The position numbers and the translations under genes are program-made. Shown one piece after another: positions 31,546 through 43,610 of a stretch of DNA of 64,000 nt. Positions within the stretch are counted from its first letter, which is position 1, and each line of letters begins with the position of its first letter. The stretch covers positions 248,001 to 312,000 of the forward strand of contig VUYT01000006.1 of the NCBI GenBank assembly GCA_008802785.1, in the 5' to 3' direction. The notes beneath the pieces were generated by a model. The model made no database searches. It saw only the letters and a program-made list of their open reading frames with translations, and had not been told where the DNA came from. Origin of the DNA: Symmetrospora coprosmae. Its lineage: Eukaryota > Basidiomycota > Cystobasidiomycetes > Symmetrosporaceae.

Positions 31546-33037
31546 GGTGCAAGGAGTGGGCTATGTGAGTGAGAGGGTGTAGGACAGAGGAGAGCAAGTG
31601 AGAGAAAGAGAGAGCTCTTCCGTCGTCTCTTCCCTGTGTCCTTCCTCGGCGACGGCGTAACTTGGAGCCGGTACAGCAGAGGTGGAGACTTGCGAACGCA
31701 CAGTTACGGACGGACAGCCCTGCAGGAAGGATCAAAAGGCAACAAATCGCACAGTACGTGATGAGTACATGCGAGTGTCCCGCACCGCAATGCTGCGCTA
31801 CCCGCCTCTAGAGCCGTTGCTGCAGTACAAATGGTGCAGAGTCCTTGAATCTGTCCAACCCCTAATTTGCCACATCCGTACCCCCCTTCAGCAACTCCGA
31901 GTACGCGTACACATACAGCACTTACGGCATCGCAGAGGTGCTGGGTAGCGCTTGCGACGCCTTTACTGCCATTGCCTCTGCTAAAGGCACACGCGCGTCG
32001 GTGCCGTCTCCGTGTGAGCTGCTCTCGCATACTGCTTTGCATGCCAACTCGATCGGGTCGAGTCGGACCAGCACTGGTGTGGCTCCGCACGCCTGACTTC
32101 TGAGGAGTACCAATCCTCGCTAGCAGCAGCAGCAGCAGCAGCCATGCAGCAGTATACGCGCCGTCCCTTCTCTGCAGGAGGCCTGATCACCTAGAGGATC
32201 GGCTCCATCGCAGCATACACCCTCGGAAAAGCAAGGCCAACCGGGCAAAGCGGTGGGTGAGTGGGAGCATGGACTGAGTCGGTCAGGTCGTGCAACACGG
32301 GGCAACACAAGCAAAGGGGGAATGGCGCAGGCATTCTGCCAACCAGGGCATGGGCAGTGCTGCCCTATGGCGATGCTCTTTACGCCCTTGCGCGCTCCCG
32401 ACCCTTCTTCCGCGCGACCACCCGACGAGGGTCGCGGCGGGTCGCATAGCACACGGGGTGGTCGGGAAGGGGATGGCAACTGCACCGTTCACATCTGCAG
32501 AACATGAGAGATATTCATGCATGCATGCATGCACCGTCTGTGCACAGATATACTGACTAGGTCATTCTGCCGCTTCGTCCTCAGCTGCCGGCTGCGTTCA
32601 ACGCCCCTCCAGCACTCACCCCCAGGGGACAAGAGACCGAAGAGAGTGTCACCCCCCAAGAGCCACAGCATCTCAGTTCTGCCAGGTGCCCAGCAGCAGA
32701 GTCTGCACTGAGACACGCACACGCACACGCACACAGCACTGCCGCCGCCTCTGTTGAACATCAGCACCGCGTGGGCACCGTCTTCACTCGAGCGTGCTCC
32801 TTCTCTTCCTCCGAAGGCACCCGACGGTCCCCCTTCCTCGGAGTTCTAGTCGGGAAACCCGTCCGTCGAGGCGCAAGACTGGAGAGGAGCACCGCACCGT
32901 AGCGCAGCAAGTGCGCTCTACCTGTCTGTGCGGACTGCGCACCGCAGACACGCCGCTCCGACGACGCTCTGACCAAGATTACCTCAGCCAGCCGCAAAGT
33001 ACTGTACGCGTAAAGCGCGACCTCTCGCACACGCACA
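31546..33037. promoter_or_regulatory. Long divergent intergenic region with microsatellites
   Basis: 1.5 kb between the ALDH start and the SWI1 start. It holds seven AGC units (32122-32142), an ATGC run (32517-32532) and a CACACG-rich run (about 32703-32735). Several short frames exist on both strands, but none has family-like sequence. The length suggests complex upstream control or a long leader for SWI1. Confidence 0.45.
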
Positions 33038-33123
33038 ATGGCAGGAAATGGCGGCGTTGACGGGCACGACATGCTTGCACAGCAGCGCATGCTCCAGTCG
33101 TACATGGACGACCTTATGCGCAC

Positions 33124-33155
<32 letters not shown>

Positions 33156-36100
33156 CTGGGCCCGGCGCGAACAACGGCGGCGCCGGGGGCAGTGGGAGCG
33201 CGAACCTCGGGCTCCACCCAGGCGTCCCTGCCATCTTTCAGCAGAATGCCATGGCCCGCCAGCAGCCCGTGCCCAACAATGCGGGTACAGGAGGCGCCCC
33301 GCAGCAGCAGCAGCAGCAATTTCCCGGCCTGGCGGGCGGGGGCCTGCCCATGCAGTACCCGGGGCAGGGGCAGGGGCAAGGGCAAGGGCAAGGGCACGCG
33401 CAGGCCCAGCCTGGACAGCAGACGCCGCAGCCGTGGAACGCCAACATGCTGCAGAACATCCAGCAGCGGCCCATGCTGCCCGGCCCTGGCACTGGCAACC
33501 AAGCTGGGACGTCCCAGCAGCAAGTGCCCCCGCAGTCTGGGCCGCAGTACTCGCAGGCAGAGATTCAGGCCATGTTTGCTTCGCTGCTCCCACAACAGCA
33601 GCAGCAGCAACAGCAGCAGATGCCGATGCAGCAGTTCGGCCAGCAGCAGCAGCTACAGCAGCAAGGCCCGCCTCAGCAACAACACCAACAGCCACCTCAG
33701 CCGCAGCAGCAGCAATTCGGACAGGGCAATGCGTACCCACCCCAACTGCAGGCTGCCTTCCAGCAGTTCCAGCAGCAGCAACAACAACTGCAGATGCAGC
33801 AGCAGCAGCAGCAACAGCACAACGGCAATAATCAGCTGGGCGGGGGAGCATTCGCCGGGCAGAACGCGCAGGCGCCCGACCTCAACATGCTGCTCAAGCT
33901 CCGCCAGCAAGGTGCGCAGCTCACCCCGGAACAGCAGATGCTGCTCGCACGGAACATGCCCCGCCGGGGCGGGACGGCGAACGAGCAGGCGGGGCCCGGT
34001 AACGCCGGTCCGACGGCTGCCGCAGGAGGACAGCAGATCCAGTACAACAACTCGCCTCAGACGGCAAACCGGCAGCAGGTCCCGCCTCAGCCACAGCAGC
34101 AGCAGCATGGCCCCAGCAGCGGACTGGGAGGGCAGAGCCAGAACTCCGCACTCGGACTGTCCAACATGCAGCCTGCTCCCATAGGCCAACAGTCGGGCCA
34201 GCAGCAGCAGCAGCAGCAGCCGGCGATGACGGTGCCGCTACCTGTGCTGCACGAGTATACGGCGCTGAGCGACCAGATGCGGACATGTCTGGCGCAGGAG
34301 CAGCACATTGCCGTGTGCCTCTCGTCTGGGCTATCGATCCCCGCAAAAGCGCTGCCGGGCGCGCCAGCCCCGCAGCCCCTCACACCACATCAGCGGCAGG
34401 CGCTCGAGGCGCAGCAGAACAGCTTGCGCAACACTATCGCGCTCCTGCGGCCAAAGGTCCTTGCCTTTGAGGCGCAGTGCGGGGGCAAGGAGAACATCCT
34501 CCTCAATGTGCGGGCGTACGCGATCCAACGCCAGCAGGCGATGCAGCAGCAGCAGCAGGCGCAGCAGGGGCAACAGCATGGGCAAGGGCAGACACCCGGC
34601 TCAGGTCAAGGACAGGTCCAGGGGCAGGGGCAAGCTGTCAATCGCGGCCAGATGCGCACGCCCGTCAACGGGGCCGGGAACAGTGCCAATGTCACCCCTC
34701 AGCAGAACAACCGGCAGACCAGTGCACCTGGTGTGAACCTCGGCAATGCTGGCAGTGCCATTGCGGTATCGCAGCAGCAGAGTATGCAGGCGCAGATGCA
34801 GCGGCTCATGCAGCAGCAGCAGCAACAGCAACAGCCAAGTATGCCAGCCGCTGCAGGCCAACCAAACAACCTGACCCAGTCGCCGGCTCAGCCTGGCCGT
34901 ACGAGTATCCCAACCCAGCAGCAGCAAGGCGGCCCAATACAGGGGTCGCCGCCCATGCAGCCGAGTCTTCCGCAGAGCCAGCAGCCCATCTACACGCCTG
35001 CACAGATCGCCTTCATTCGCTCGCAGCCACAGCTCGTCAATGAGGAGATCATGAAGACGCTCAACGCAGCGCCGAACGCGACCTTCATGAAGGCTCTGTT
35101 CGACACGATGAAGAAGCGCGAAAAGCCCATATTGTCCATTCCCCGGGTGGAAGGGAAGGAGGTTGACCTGCACAAGTTGTACAAGGTCGTGCAACAAAGA
35201 GGCGGCTGCCTGCCTGTATGTTGACAATCCTCGTGCGCGCAGACCATGCAGCACAGGCTGACAGGATGCCATTCTCCTCTCCGCAGATCAAGCAGCAAGG
35301 CCTTTGGCGGCAGGTAGCTCTCGAGATCAACATCGTGGCAGACAGTCCCGAGGCCGGCCAGCGGATCTCGGATCAGCTGCAGAGCGTGTACACAGAGTAC
35401 CTTGAGCCGTTTGAGGAGATCCAGCGCCGCGCTGCCATCAGCACCGTCCTGAAGCAGGCGGCAAACTCCCAGCAGCTGCAGCAGCTACAGATGCAGTACC
35501 AGCAGCAACAGCAACAGCAGCAACAGATGCAGCAGCACCAGCGTGCGCAAAGCAGCAACGGCGCCCCGCTGATGCCCCCTAATCAGGGCCAGGCCGGCGC
35601 ATTGCCTGCCCGTCAGCCGAGTCCGAACAACATCAATCAGCATGGTGCGCCAAACGCTGTGCCTCACCCTGGCGCAGGCGGACCTGCGAATTCACAGGCT
35701 GCCCTGCACTTCCAGCAGCAGCAACAGCAGTCACATCAGTACCTTGCGAGCATACAGCAGATCCAAGCGCAGGCCGCTGCCCAGCAGCAGATGCAGGCGA
35801 TGCAGCAGGCAGGATTCAACATGGCGAGTCTGACTCCGCAGATGCCGGGCGTGCCTCTACCCGCGCTGGGCGGTGTAATGGGGGCCCCTGCTGGTCCAGC
35901 ACAGGCACATGTGCATGCGCAGTGGGCAGCCGCACAGCTCTTGTCGCAGCAGCAAGCGGCTCAGCATGCGCTTCAAATGCAGCAGCAGCAGCAGCAGCAG
36001 CAGCAACCGGCCTTCACTCCCCAGCAGCCTGCAGCACAGCAGCAGCAGCAACAGCAACAGCATCAACAACAGCAGCAGACCGCGGTATTTCAACCTCAGC

Positions 36101-38134
36101 CGGAACAAGCCAGCCAGCAGCAGGTGCCGTCCAAAGCAGGCCACCAAAGGAATCCATCAGTCGCGTCTCAAAGCCAGGGGCAGAGTCAAGGACAAGGGCA
36201 AGGCACGCCTCAAACGCAGAATCAGCCCCTGCAGCCGGTGGGTAATCGGCAGCAGCAAAGTAACCCTGCGTCAGGGCGGCCAACTCTCCCTTCCTCGGAA
36301 GAGACTGCTCGAGCGAAAGGCGAGATTGAACAGATGAAGCAGCGCTTGCAGCAGAATCGACGTATGTCTGATCTGCCCATCATTCTCTGGGCCGTCTCGC
36401 TGATTGCCATCACGACCTGCCTCCCTTCCTTTCGATCAATACAGCTCAGTACAAAATACTCGAGAATATTGACCAGGCCGAGCAGGCCAAGTTCACCGCT
36501 CTCACAAAGACACTGCAGCCGATGGTCGACAAAGTGCTGGATCTGCTCCCACTCTACCTTGCCATGAGCAGTCAAGCGGAAGGCGCTCGCCGAATGCTGG
36601 TTATGGTGCGGACACCCTGACTGCAGTCGATGAGTTTGCTGGAGTTGCTGACGCTTTGCGCTCTCAGATGTACATGTTCCGTGACCAGCTGGTCGCCCTC
36701 GAGCGCCGGCCCCCAGAATACATCCTCCGAGTCTCGGACCTCGAGAAGCTTCGGATCCAGCTGCAGCGGTGCTGGACATTTGTGTCTTCCATTGCGCAGG
36801 GCTCCGGATCACCCGTCGATGTCGCGCAGACAGCGGGCCAGCAGTTGGCGCCAAACGGCGTGGGCGGCGGGCTCGAGAACTCGAATTTCCAAGGCGTGGT
36901 AATGAAGGCAGGTCTCAGGGTTGAGGACCTGAAGCCGCCTCCTGCAAAGAAGCGAGGTTCGATGATGGGCCCTTCGGGAGTTGCAAGCGGCAGCGGAATG
37001 ACGCCGACGGCGAGTGGGCCCTCGCCGGCCTCTGCAGTCCAGACGGGCGGCGTCGCAAACGCCGACAAAGCTGGCACGGGGCAGTCCTACGCTTCTCCCA
37101 TATCACTGGACTCGCCTTCGCCGGGCAAGGCAGAGGCGTCCAGCACGGGACCGTCTCGACCCAGCATCAAGAAGACCAATACCGCCGGGTCATCAAACAC
37201 ACCAGACTCGACCTTCACTGCTCCTGGCACGCCGAGGTCGGCCGCTGCCGCGCTCGGGGCAAAGCCCAAAGCGAAACCCAAGGGCAGAGGTGCAGTCAAT
37301 GCAAAGACACCGCTCAGCAACGACATCTCCCTGCCGCCCGTGGCTGAGGCAGACCCTCCCGTCCCGCAATCCGGAACAGGGCAGACGCCCAAGCAGCCGT
37401 CGCAGGCTCTGCCCCAGCTTTCAGGCGGTGCATCGCAAGTGCGCGGCCTCACAGAAGCGCAGTCACAAGCCGTGCAGCAGGCGCAGGTACAAGCTCAGCA
37501 GCTCTCGCTCAAGCGCAAGCGCGAGCTCGAAGAAGCCAATGACGATCCAGCCGGATTTGCCGAGCGCATCTTCGCAAGCTACCTTTCTGCCGACACGAAG
37601 CAGCACGGTCAGCCGGCGGGGCTCGGGCGGGCTCAGAACAGCCAGTCTTCCGGCTCTGCGGGTAGTACCGGCTTGTCGGCTGCCTTCGGGGAGGACCTGA
37701 TGCGGTTTCTCAACGAGGATTTCCTTGCGGGTGACGAAGCGAAGGCGCCGCCCGTATCTGTCGCTGCGACCATCAGCACGCCGTACCAAGCAGCTGGGCC
37801 TCGCTGGTTCTCCGAGACCCCTTCCTTCTCGGCCGAAACTCCGGAGCTCTTTTCCGAAGACCCGCACCGAACCAGTCCACCAGACAACGACTTTGCCACG
37901 CCGTCTGACGCGCTCAACTCTTCTACCGCCAGCGCGCAACAGGCCCGTCCATCGGCCCTGCCATCTGTCCCGCCCAAGGCAAGTACTGCGGACATCATCT
38001 CGTCGTTCGACAAAGAGTACGAGGAGCTCTTCAAGGCGGTGTCGGTGTCGGCTGCACCGTCTACCGCCTCCTTGCCGCCGGGTGACCTGGCTTGGTCATG
38101 GGACAGCGGGCTGGTTCCCACAACTGCAAGATAG
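33038..38134 (+). CDS. SWI1: SWI1-like ARID subunit of the SWI/SNF chromatin remodeller
   Basis: Exons 33038-35215, 35287-36361, 36445-36605 and 36668-38134 give 1626 aa. The first 680 residues are extremely Gln-rich with many CAG/CAA runs and a (Gly-Gln) stretch. The ARID DNA-binding domain spans residues 683-770: FMKALFDTMKKREKPILSIP, GKEVDLHKLYKVVQQRGGCL, then after intron 1 IKQQGLWRQVALEINIVADS. A second Gln-rich region follows, then a helical segment (AQYKILENIDQAEQ-like, after intron 2) and EYILRVSDLEKLRIQLQRCW, and a long disordered C-terminus with a Lys/Arg motif (LKRKREL). ARID plus Gln-rich flanks is the build of fungal Swi1, which recruits SWI/SNF to chromatin in the nucleus. Intron 3 (62 bp) is needed to avoid a stop. 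Mediator Med15 was considered and rejected because of the ARID. Confidence 0.85.
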
Positions 38135-38419: not shown

Positions 38420-40402
38420 CTAGACACGCTTCTGCTTCTCCTCTTGCAGCGCCCTCTCCTTCTCCAGATACATGGCCTGCTCGACACGCGACTTCTTCAA
38501 GTCGACAAAGGCGAGAATGACACTGCCGAGAATGGAAAGGCCAAAGAGGAAGTAGAACGGCAGACTATTGTTGCCAGATGGGCTAGCATCAATAATGGCT
38601 GAAGAGACGATGGGACCCTGTACGTACGCGATCGCTTGGTCAGCGTTATGCAGCCAAGAATGGTCTAAGCCCTCCGACCGAGCCAGCCCACGCAACACTC
38701 ACGATGAAAGCGCTTGTCTTGCCAAAGATGGAGAAGAGCGAAAAGAAGAGGAACTCCTTACCGCGCGGAGTGACCTGTCACGAGACGAGAGCACAGTGAG
38801 CAGGAGCCAGTCGTGTCAGTCTTCTACGCCACCAGAGTCCAGCAGGAAGCACTCCTCACCTCCGAGATCATGACCTGGGAATAGGAGTACCAGGGGCATA
38901 CGAAGAGCCCGTAGAAAGCTTGGTATACCCAGGGCTCCCACTGTTCGTTTGGGGCGCACATCAGCCGATGTCCTGCCTGAACTTCATAAGAAAGGCTTAG
39001 ATCCCACCGTTTGATGAAAGCCAAACCGCTGGGTCCAGATGCCGATGGCGCCCCACCCGTCAAGGATGCAGATGGATACCATGATCACCGAGAACATCGT
39101 CTTTGTCGACAGGCGGTACCGTTTCTGGATCATCCAGAAGCCTCCGATTCCAACGAGCTGCGCCGCGATGCCAACGATCAGGAGGTAGGCCAAGGTCAAC
39201 GAGTTATAAGAAGTGATGGCGTTTTGGAGTGTGCCGATGACGGAGACGGTTGTGTTGAGCGAGTCCGAGAGGATGAAAAAGCCGACAAGGTAGAGGAGGG
39301 TCTGCTTCAACTGCCAGATCTGGGTCATGGCGCGCCAGACCGTCCAGGGAAGGACAGTAAAGACGTTCAAGCCAGCAGGTATATTTTGACCAGGCCGTCG
39401 CTTTTCCAGGACGAACCACGGAATGGCGAGGACGATCCACACTCCTGTGCAGTAGGCGATGAGAACGCTGAGCCCGTAAGCGTTATTTGCGGCTGAAGCG
39501 TTGACCTGCAACGCAAAGAGGATGCCGACCAGGACGGCCAGGACAACGATCTCGCCTGCACTCTGCGCAATGAAAGCGACGTTGCTGATGCGGTTCCGCT
39601 GCATCATGTCTTCGTGGTCGTACTCGTCGCGGGAGACCTCTCCCCGCTCGTACTGCTGCGCCTTTTCCCGCATCTCATCCGTGTTTCTCGCTAGACCAGG
39701 GAAAGCCGCTGTCCAGAACGTGATGCACATCTGGTACGCGATCAGGCTGAGCATGTATAGCGCTATGCCTGCGGGCCAGCGCTCGGCCGTATGGACGCCC
39801 ATCCAGGCGAACCCGAGCGCGAAGGCCACAACGCTCCAGAAGATGAGAATCCACGGCCGCCATGTGCCGAAGTCTGCAAGTGCGCCCAGCAAAAGGAAGA
39901 GCACGACTTGGATCGCGAATGAGATGCCGTTCGAGAGCAGCACGATCGAGTTGATGGTTCGGTCGCGCCCAAGGAAGCGCAACACTCCCGCATCGCCTGC
40001 CGCCTCGTATAGCAGATTCTGCGCTTGTGTCGGCGCGTAATTGAACAGAGAAAGTCCTGAGTTACCTGTAGTGTAGTACAGTATTGTGAAGAGGTGCAGA
40101 AGGTGTCCAAATTTAGCTACCTCTGCGGCTTAGGGGTAAGGAGGGGTGTGCCCGAACGCACCTATGTAATAGCTGTAGTAGGCCCAGCGCTCGTACTTGC
40201 TCGTCCTGTAGCGCTCTTCGAATTGATCCGGAGCGACGAGCCTTTCCTGGCTTTCGTTCAGGCTGCGCTCGCTCGTCTCGATACTGCGGTCCAGTCCTCG
40301 GCTGAGATCCGTTCCGACTTTTCCATCCTCGTCGAGCTCTTTCGCATCGGAAGCTTCGGCGTCCAGGTGCGCTTGCACGGGCAGAGGTTGTGGAACTGAC
40401 AT
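38420..40402 (-). CDS. ATG22: Autophagy-related protein 22 (vacuolar amino-acid effluxer)
   Basis: Exons 40402-40162, 40065-39008, 38940-38860, 38774-38703 and 38617-38420 give 549 aa. A charged N-terminus (about 65 aa) leads to KYERWAYYSYYIGNSGLSLF, a family signature. About twelve membrane spans follow, including SIVLLSNGISFAIQVVLFLL, TWRPWILIFWSVVAFALGFA, IWQLKQTLLYLVGFFILSDS (Asp-Ser near the Atg22 motif) and WEPWVYQAFYGLFVCPWYSY, then EVTPRGKEFLFFSLFSIFGK. A Lys/Glu-rich tail ends the protein. Atg22 belongs to the MFS superfamily and exports amino acids from the vacuole after autophagic breakdown. All introns are phase 0 except the first. The intron 2 acceptor was chosen before TGG because it restores the conserved T-W-E junction. 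Confidence 0.9.
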
Positions 40403-40564: not shown

Positions 40565-41524
40565 TCAGCCCTGCTCGTCTGGAGTGGACGGCAGAGCGGG
40601 CCCTGCAAAGATGGTATTCTGTGCCTCTTGGACTGTCCATCGGATGCCCAGGTCCCGCATCGCTCTCACAGCCTCCCGCCGCGCGTCGATGAAGCCAGAG
40701 CAATCTGCCATCAGGTTGCCGAGATAGGCGATCTCGACAGATATACCAAAAAAGATGTTCTGTGCGGCCCGCATCTCTGCTGGTACGGACAAGCTGATGT
40801 TGGGGAGGTGTGTCAGGCGCGGAAAGCGCGCTGGTCGTCGTGCTAGGAGGCGCAGCATGTGCAAGCATGCAGGTACTGGCATATCGAGCAGACGCAGTTG
40901 CTTGAGCGAGGGAGGCAGATCATCGAGTATGCTGCATACAGTGCCGACGTTTGCTGAGGTCATGTCTTGGAGCGGACTGATCTCGTAACGGAAGTCTAGG
41001 CTGAAGTCGGCTAGGTTTGCCGAGTGCTGCAAGATCTGCCTGAGTTCCTGGACGGTCCCCGCATCCATTGTTCTTCCGCTGGCAGATACGAACAGGCCGC
41101 TGACCGAGAGCGTGTGCAAGCTGTCCAAGGAATTGGGCAGGCTGCGCGACAGCCAAACCAGATCACCTGCGGTTTCGACGACCAGTGCGGTCAAATGGGT
41201 GAATGGAAGTATTGGAGCGTCCCGGTTCCAAGGTGAAACCAGCCGATTTCTACTTGAGGGGACGTGGACTGTCCGTATGAGGGACGCGTTCTCCGGCCGC
41301 TGTGAAAGCGCCTCCTCGACGCGAATCAAGTTTGCTGGACAGAGGGTGAGGCTCCGCCACAGCCACATGCGCATGGGATGCTTGAAGGATCGACAGACAG
41401 TCTGGAGACGCTCCATTTCGAGACGGACCTTGCGAGGAGGTGTACATGCTGTCCCGAGCAAGTCCAGCACGAGGAGATCGAGAATGTGGTCGACGAGCTC
41501 GGGAGCTAGCGAGGTGAAGGACAT
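40565..41524 (-). CDS. F-box/LRR-like protein
   Basis: This is an intronless frame of 319 aa. It opens MSFTSLAPELVDHILDLLVL, an F-box-like N-terminus (LxPELVDHIL), followed by RLQTVCRSFKHPMRMWLWRS. The rest has regularly spaced leucine-rich segments (FTHLTALVVETAGDLVWLSR, LDSLHTLSVSGLFVSASGRT, PPSLKQLRLLDMPVPACLHM, RFPRLTHLPNISLSVPAEM), as in fungal F-box/LRR substrate receptors of SCF ligases. It lies 163 bp 3' of the ATG22 start, on the same strand. The substrate is unknown. It shares the fold style of the F-box-like gene at 17.5-18.4 kb, but I see no close sequence identity between them. Confidence 0.65.
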   Translation of the reverse strand: MSFTSLAPELVDHILDLLVLDLLGTACTPPRKVRLEMERLQTVCRSFKHPMRMWLWRSLTLCPANLIRVEEALSQRPENASLIRTVHVPSSRNRLVSPWNRDAPILPFTHLTALVVETAGDLVWLSRSLPNSLDSLHTLSVSGLFVSASGRTMDAGTVQELRQILQHSANLADFSLDFRYEISPLQDMTSANVGTVCSILDDLPPSLKQLRLLDMPVPACLHMLRLLARRPARFPRLTHLPNISLSVPAEMRAAQNIFFGISVEIAYLGNLMADCSGFIDARREAVRAMRDLGIRWTVQEAQNTIFAGPALPSTPDEQG

Positions 41525-42722: not shown

Positions 42723-43610
42723 ATGCGTCTCACCGCTCTCACCTCCGCGGCCATCCTCCTTGCCATCAACTCTGCCTTTGTGGCTGGTGCCGCCGTCAAC
42801 ACTGGCGCTCAGGTGTGTCTTAGCTCCCCATGCGCCCGCACGCTCTCAGTCCGAAGACGTGACTGACTGACTGCTGCATTGGCCCTCACAGGTTGAGCGC
42901 GCCCTTGTCGCCCGAGACGAGGCTGTCGACGATGGCAGCCGATTCTTCAAGCCTGGCCGAGGCTACGTCAAGCGCGACGACGACTCTGTCGTGGTGGAGG
43001 GCACCGAGGGTGCGTGGGCGGGCAGCGGCCGTCCCCGTGGCTACGTCAAGAGGGAAGCCGACTCGCCCGTCGTCGACGGAACAGAGGGAGCGTGGGCAGG
43101 CAGCGGCCGCCCGCGGGGCTATGTGAGGCGCGACGGCGACGACACCGAGGTTGTCGAGGGGACGGAGGGTGCCTGGGCTGGCAGCGGCCGCCCGCGAGGC
43201 TACGCCAAGCGCGACGGAGATGACGACGACGCTGCTGTTGTTGGCGGCACCGAGGGCGCATGGGCAGGAAGCGGTCGCGGGCGCGGGTACGCCAAGCGCG
43301 ACGATGCTGACGTCGTCGAGGGCACTGAGGGTGCCTGGGCAGGCAGTGGCCGCCCTCGAGGCTACGTCAAGCGTGACGAGGAAGGAAACGTCGTCGGCGG
43401 CACCGAGGGCGCCTGGGCGGGAAGTGGCCGTGGACGTGGCTACGCTCGCAGGCAGGAGGCTGTCGACGGCACCGAGGCACAGTTCTTTGCGCCTGCCAGA
43501 GGCTACAAGGTCAAGAGGAAGGAGTTCCATGTGAGTGTCTGCTTTTGTCGGTTTGACGACTATCCCGAGCTAATGTGCTGTTCCTCCTGTCCGCCACCGG
43601 CCAGGCCTAA
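42723..43610 (+). CDS. Secreted Kex2-type repeat peptide precursor (KEP-like)
   Basis: Exons 42723-42812, 42892-43530 and 43605-43610 give 244 aa. Residues 1-22 form a signal peptide (MRLTALTSAAILLAINSAFV). The rest is almost entirely a tandem array. Six copies of GTEGAWAGSGRPRGYVKR (variants GRGRGY, Y-A-K-R, Y-V-R-R) start at residues 67, 93, 120, 149, 174 and 200. Each ends in a dibasic Kex2 site and is separated by a variable acidic spacer (for example DGDDTEVVE). The array is flanked by two diverged units that resemble each other (RFFKPGRGYVKR at 47-58; QFFAPARGYKVKR at 227-239). Cleavage by Kex2 and trimming by Kex1 would release a family of small peptides sharing the WAGSGRPRGY core. 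The last exon encodes only Ala and the stop. The function is unknown; fungal KEP proteins include pheromones, repellents and RiPP precursors. Confidence 0.85.
42943..43518 (+). repeat. In-frame coding tandem repeat of the peptide precursor
   Basis: Units of 75-87 bp, six strongly conserved and one diverged at each end. The conserved 54-bp core encodes the peptide plus Kex2 site, while the spacers vary in length and sequence. This is as expected if selection acts on the core and the array grows or shrinks by unequal exchange. Confidence 0.85.

Follow-up and report, generated by a model that had tools for sequence, protein, structure and literature searches.

A probable Kex2-processed repeat protein carrying two kinds of RGY-ending peptide in Symmetrospora coprosmae

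Introduction

Kex2-processed repeat proteins (KEPs) are delimited by two published definitions. In that of Le Marquer et al. (2019; PMC6339444), a KEP carries a secretion signal, is cut at KR or RR into at least four fragments of which at least three are similar, has repeats that account for at least 15% of the protein, and possesses no membrane segment. In that of Umemura (2020; PMC7329392), at least three repeats of at least 8 and at most 100 aa are placed between KR, KK, RK or RR sites, and the accompanying survey comprises 7878 KEPs. The functions of KEPs are described as largely unknown, and Coprinopsis cinerea showed no apparent phenotype when six of its KEP genes were deleted (PMC9769878).

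Here, a 64,000-nt stretch of the Symmetrospora coprosmae genome (assembly GCA_008802785.1, 20,053,935 bases in 77 contigs; contig VUYT01000006.1, positions 248,001-312,000 of the forward strand) is analysed; this whole stretch, with a GC content of 60.5%, is referred to as the window, and gene coordinates are counted within it unless a contig is named. The window contains an array gene that appears to encode a real, selected and conserved multi-peptide precursor, probably for an undescribed secreted peptide. Comparison of its copies with one another marks what is probably the functional part, a selected 15-residue message ending in RGY next to a drifting spacer, and its homologues reveal a second kind of message in the same carrier. 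The exact peptides are thereby defined for synthesis and testing, and there is one gene for deletion.

Gene model and precursor

The array gene extends over 42723..43610 on the forward strand, the exact coordinates of a preliminary description made from the sequence, and consists of three exons that encode 244 aa between an ATG at 42723 and a TAA ending at 43610. In the gene model, exon 1 (42723..42812, +) provides the start codon and the N-terminus (MRLTALTSAAILLAINSAFVAGAAVNTGAQ), which is hydrophobic and of the signal-peptide type, as predicted from hydropathy alone. Exon 2 (42892..43530, +) encodes the propeptide, eight repeat units and a closing KEFH, and exon 3 (43605..43610, +) contributes only the last codon, for Ala, and the TAA stop. 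Both introns are of the GT-AG type: intron 1 (42813..42891, +; GTGTGT ... ACAG), the removal of which carries the reading frame on into the repeats, and intron 2 (43531..43604, +; GTGAGT ... CCAG). In the homologues described below the repeat character fades a few residues past the last RGY-KR, which would fit a conserved end to the coding part of the array.

Hydropathy in a 19-residue window peaks at 1.87 at residue 3, and no second hydrophobic segment follows the signal by this measure. The precursor contains 0 Cys among its 244 residues, no N-glycosylation sequon and no GPI-like tail at the C-terminus; disorder is expected of so repetitive a protein. Searches of Pfam and the PDB with the whole precursor returned nothing above cut-off. 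There was no match to MF_alpha, the sole Pfam match being sub-threshold and unrelated (DUF4893, E 5.6).

Organization of the repeat array

The eight units are arranged as one F-type unit (FFKPGRGY), six W-type units (GTEGAWAGSGR[P/G]RGY) and a second F-type unit (FFAPARGY). The array is preceded by a short propeptide ending in LVAR, which together with F-type unit 1 (FFKPGRGY-V-KR) occupies 42892..42975 (+). The LVAR end is of the LxxR type, a form of the expanded Kex2 motif (PMC8528282), and may be an additional Kex2 site. The W-type units follow without interruption on the same strand: unit 1 (42976..43053, +) reads DDDSVVVE-GTEGAWAGSGRPRGY-V-KR, unit 2 (43054..43131, +) EADSPVVD-GTEGAWAGSGRPRGY-V-RR, unit 3 (43132..43212, +) DGDDTEVVE-GTEGAWAGSGRPRGY-A-KR, unit 4 (43213..43299, +) DGDDDDAAVVG-GTEGAWAGSGRGRGY-A-KR, unit 5 (43300..43374, +) DDADVVE-GTEGAWAGSGRPRGY-V-KR and unit 6 (43375..43452, +) DEEGNVVG-GTEGAWAGSGRGRGY-A-RR. 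F-type unit 2, QEAVDGTEAQFFAPARGY-KV-KR, completes the array at 43453..43518 (+). The W-type units measure 25-29 aa with their dibasic sites, and the spacers between the cores are acidic and variable.

The preliminary description had recognized six near-identical W-type units flanked by two F-type units, and this layout is borne out. It had also written the repeated peptide as copies of WAGSGRPRGY; the count of six stands, but a single core does not, as the W-type core is GTEGAWAGSGRPRGY in four of the six units (RPRGY) and GTEGAWAGSGRGRGY in the other two (RGRGY). At the DNA level the five other copies share 63-80% identity with the reference copy, and the spacing is 75-87 nt (Tandem Repeats Finder).

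A KR or RR site follows RGY in all eight units, after one residue in seven of them and after two in one, and the only other dibasic pair in the precursor is an RK that overlaps the last KR site. When the mature part was shuffled (n=20000), no shuffle contained more than one RGY with a dibasic site after it, and 0/20000 attained the 8 observed. The dibasic unit ends and variable acidic spacers of the earlier account are upheld.

Selection within the array

Synonymous and non-synonymous differences were summed over the 15 pairs formed by the six W cores, each of 15 codons; as the pairs are drawn from non-independent copies, the resulting pS and pN are descriptive and carry no p-value. Within the cores, differences fall on 118.0 of 182.5 synonymous sites (pS 0.647), as against 16.0 of 492.5 non-synonymous sites (pN 0.032), the latter all stemming from the one codon that alternates between P and G. 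The expected non-synonymous share of random single substitutions in the W core is 74%. In the same six copies, the five codons directly upstream of each core show a pS of 0.637 and a pN of 0.332. Selection therefore holds the protein sequence of the W core and the adjoining spacer much less. Two Val codons are constant within the five-codon upstream stretch, so that conservation may extend back to VV.

The pS of the cores (0.647) compared with that of the spacers (0.637) indicates that cores and spacers are equally old. The W copies are therefore old and not products of recent slippage; the core protein was kept while the adjoining spacer changed.

Homologues and search for paralogues

Homologues were sought among approximately 5.8 billion proteins, of which the best 8000 candidates by shared words were scored, so that the family has at least three members beyond the window protein. 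P0001 (45% identity over 60% of the query, E 5.6e-15) and P0002 (41% identity over 46% of the query, E 1.2e-13) were found directly in this way, and P0003 (E 1.4e-20) by a profile built from the array parts of the precursor, P0001 and P0002. Beyond these three, the same profile found nothing at E up to 10 among its best 8000 candidates, and a query consisting of the F-type part of P0002 brought back just that protein itself and P0001, with no further relative among 22 candidates. The three proteins come from the sources 'ena' and 'lgn', are diverged from the window protein, and are probably gene predictions made on fungal contigs that are metagenomic or unannotated. No signal peptide is visible in their predicted sequences, which look like unspliced single-exon predictions.

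The arrays of P0001, P0002 and P0003 contain three, two and one truncated W-type unit, followed by four, three and three F-type units, respectively. Across the four proteins RGY or RAY has a dibasic site within the next four residues in 24/24 units, W.G.G..RGY is present in 11/11 full W-units and F...R.Y in 12/12 F-units. Copy number and spacer length vary, and the messages W.G.G..RGY and F...R[G/A]Y remain constant. Conservation of the array in close relatives had been named as a touchstone for the original proposal; the array is indeed kept in three proteins, but these are diverged sequences, predicted without a signal peptide, rather than named close relatives. In the homologues the W-type units precede the F-type units, whereas the window gene has F-type units at both ends, a difference that suggests gain and loss of units within the array. 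A likeness of the SGRP stretch to plant Pep peptides was considered and dropped, as SGRP is not kept by the homologues.

Protein searches of the S. coprosmae genome with the window protein and with P0001 matched this locus only. A degenerate DNA pattern for RGY[V/A]KR occurs at seven places genome-wide, four of them in this gene and the other three being single matches with one RGY per frame. The pattern is blind to RR ends and to AGG/AGA arginines, and detects four of the eight units of this gene, so that a diverged paralogue could be missed by it.

Predicted peptides and processing machinery

The precursor would enter the endoplasmic reticulum by means of its signal-type N-terminus, and in the late secretory pathway the kexin of the genome would cut after each KR or RR and possibly after LVAR as well. 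A Kex1-type carboxypeptidase would then trim the C-terminal basic residues, releasing about eight linear peptides of 18-27 residues, each with an acidic N-terminal part that varies and, at the C-terminus, a message that is fixed. Six of these would bear the W-type message (GTEGAWAGSGR[P/G]RGY followed by V or A) and two the F-type message (FFxPxRGY). After the Kex2 cut the spacer would stay on the peptide, its removal being unexplained by any Ste13 signature. The eight predicted peptides have a pI of 4.05-4.68, a charge of -1.2 to -4.2 and a GRAVY of -0.45 to -0.98, and are thus hydrophilic; computed neutral monoisotopic masses include 2478.141 (DDDSVVVEGTEGAWAGSGRPRGYV), 2363.078 (DDADVVEGTEGAWAGSGRPRGYV) and 2183.065 (QEAVDGTEAQFFAPARGYKV).

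A kexin gene was located on contig C44 (81136-84306) by a profile search of the genome for the P-domain, and its catalytic exons, transmembrane segment and acidic cytoplasmic tail were read by eye. This search yielded one kexin locus in S. coprosmae; three KEX2 genes are reported for C. cinerea (PMC9769878). Exons of DPPIV type are present on contig C15, and pieces of S10 carboxypeptidases on five contigs. The Ste13 signature (XA or XP after the Kex2 site) is found at 1/8 sites in the window protein and 0/16 in the homologues, or 1/24 overall.

Genomic neighbourhood

A Pfam scan of the window covered 14 ORFs, namely the 13 that ranked highest by coding score plus the one at 40565-41524, and 11 of these matched, leaving three without a match. 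The matches comprise a piece of an aldehyde dehydrogenase (29.7 kb), three ORFs belonging to an ARID and Med15-like region, a transporter resembling ATG22, a protein with a DDT domain, a pyridine-nucleotide oxidoreductase (59.5 kb), two WD40 pieces, a kinesin piece and a NAT domain of the N-acetylglutamate-synthase type. Nothing among these 14 ORFs points to a biosynthetic cluster. The earlier statement that neither UstYa nor another obvious tailoring gene lies nearby holds for the same 14 ORFs, and the lack of a tailoring family among them fits an unmodified peptide. A genome-wide UstYa search gave 0 matches here and 0 in every control genome, and so has no weight either way.

Several other features of the region and genome were recorded. 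The genome is marked as fungal by its genes, among them a fungal Med15-like stretch, ATG22 and the kexin. An exon of an ATG22-like vacuolar effluxer (38987-40129, -; Pfam ATG22, E 2.3e-87) lies upstream of the array gene. A Gln-rich ARID-domain gene (33014-38131, +), with the domain divided between two ORFs, precedes a Med15-like stretch whose weak match falls below cut-off, and the ARID/Med15-like region 33014-38131 is possibly one SWI1-type regulator in several exons. The 319-aa ORF at 40565-41524 (-) has a start that looks F-box-like by eye and no Pfam match at 0.01. Elsewhere in the genome, a PAL exon is identical at 86/148 residues (58%) to 1y2m, the best-matching solved PAL, which we take to be that of Rhodotorula toruloides. 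A search of the genome for 5.8S rRNA was empty while 9/14 control genomes matched, and the rDNA may be missing from the assembly.

Function of the array protein

The array protein is very probably a multi-peptide precursor of the KEP kind. The original proposal of a carrier for many small secreted peptides gains support from the core-restricted selection, the three homologue arrays and the kexin gene. Since selection holds the message of all copies but lets the spacers drift, function probably resides in the peptide once released and not in the whole precursor. A repetitive secreted or wall protein that stays uncleaved, with incidental KR sites, is highly improbable: tandem repeats are common among the wall proteins of fungi, but all eight KR/RR sites stand at unit ends, the homologues keep these unit-end sites while copy number and spacer length vary, and wall-anchor features are absent from the precursor, which has neither Cys nor a GPI-like C-terminus. 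A cut array whose peptides coat the cell wall is a less remote prospect, although still an unlikely one. Rep1 of Ustilago maydis has the same build, with repeats between Kex2 sites, and its peptides form amyloid-like fibrils on hyphae (PMC4617103, PMC8528282), but its repeats, of 34-55 aa, are amphipathic (PMC4617103), as against 18-27 aa, hydrophilic and acidic here. Nor is it obvious why a coat should require a 15-residue message that is nearly invariant next to spacers that drift.

Most antimicrobial peptides are not net acidic and cysteine-free, as the peptides predicted here are, and this counts against an action on other organisms, whether antimicrobial or directed at a plant or animal partner. 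Such an action is improbable, even with the resemblance in layout to U. maydis Rsp1 (260 aa, eleven hydrophilic repeats of 18/21 aa, putative Kex2 motifs; PMC4617103) and the action on the biotic environment proposed for C. cinerea KEPs (PMC9769878). Dikaritin-type RiPP precursors, the cores of which undergo cyclisation or another modification by UstYa-type oxidases, share the build of the array protein, the core contains Tyr, and DUF3328 genes adjoin 22% of KEP genes according to Umemura (PMC7329392). Against this stand the absence of UstYa from the 14 scanned ORFs and the position of the two oxidoreductase pieces of the window, 12-16 kb from the array gene with unrelated genes between, which make a dikaritin-type product quite improbable; the label 'RiPP-like' of the preliminary description finds no positive evidence here.

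Within the precursor reading, an extracellular signal, hormone- or pheromone-like and acting through a putative receptor, is favoured tentatively, at somewhat less than an even chance, because a receptor ligand would be expected to combine a short, strongly held sequence with flanks free to vary. The combination of a conserved C-terminal message with drifting N-terminal spacers suggests recognition of the C-terminal part. Le Marquer et al. regard KEPs with a Ste13 signature as good hormone candidates (PMC6339444), and the absence of this signature here (1/24) weakens a signalling role and counts against a classical pheromone. The C. cinerea deletions without apparent phenotype likewise stand against the favoured reading. 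Searches for the STE2 and STE3 families gave no match here, nor in any control genome, and so speak neither for nor against a receptor. A more specific version, rather doubtful as a whole, is a two-ligand secreted signalling system: one precursor would supply W-type and F-type RGY peptides, conserved across diverged fungi and read by their C-terminal message through a putative receptor, without Ste13 trimming.

Comparison with known systems

The array protein shares with ascomycete alpha-type pheromone precursors a signal peptide, here a predicted one, and many near-identical copies between dibasic sites, but has no MF_alpha Pfam match and next to no Ste13 signature. Basidiomycete a-type pheromone precursors (rhodotorucine, CAAX type), which are multi-copy in some red yeasts, are peptide precursors as well; the array protein differs in having a secretory signal-type N-terminus and no CAAX cysteine, and with 0 Cys it offers no farnesylation site. 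Rep1 is likewise a multi-peptide precursor cut by Kex2 (PMC4617103), but its peptides are longer and amphipathic, whereas those of the array are short, hydrophilic and acidic. Rsp1 is similar in size (260 vs 244 aa) and in its short, hydrophilic, imperfect repeats with putative Kex2 motifs, but has eleven repeats of 18/21 aa compared with eight units here; the likeness is one of layout, as tabulated in PMC4617103.

Literature searches found nothing on the W/F peptide. Five core strings had no match in the running text of 5.39 million papers; the protein or its relatives may nevertheless be listed, as an unlabelled KEP, in the supplementary catalogues. None of six red-yeast group names was found in a passage search of PMC7329392. 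A description of the core could thus not be found; the precursor itself belongs to the known KEP kind. Like KEPs, it combines a signal-type N-terminus, at least three repeats between KR or RR sites and the lack of a later hydrophobic segment. Its 8 sites delimit 9 fragments, six of them near-identical; the six 15-residue cores make up 90/244 residues (37%); hydropathy stays at or below -0.11 after residue 30, which by this measure leaves no membrane segment; and the six W-type units of 25-29 aa fall within the repeat number and length set by Umemura. As the computable parts of both published definitions are thus present, the array protein can be placed among the KEPs.
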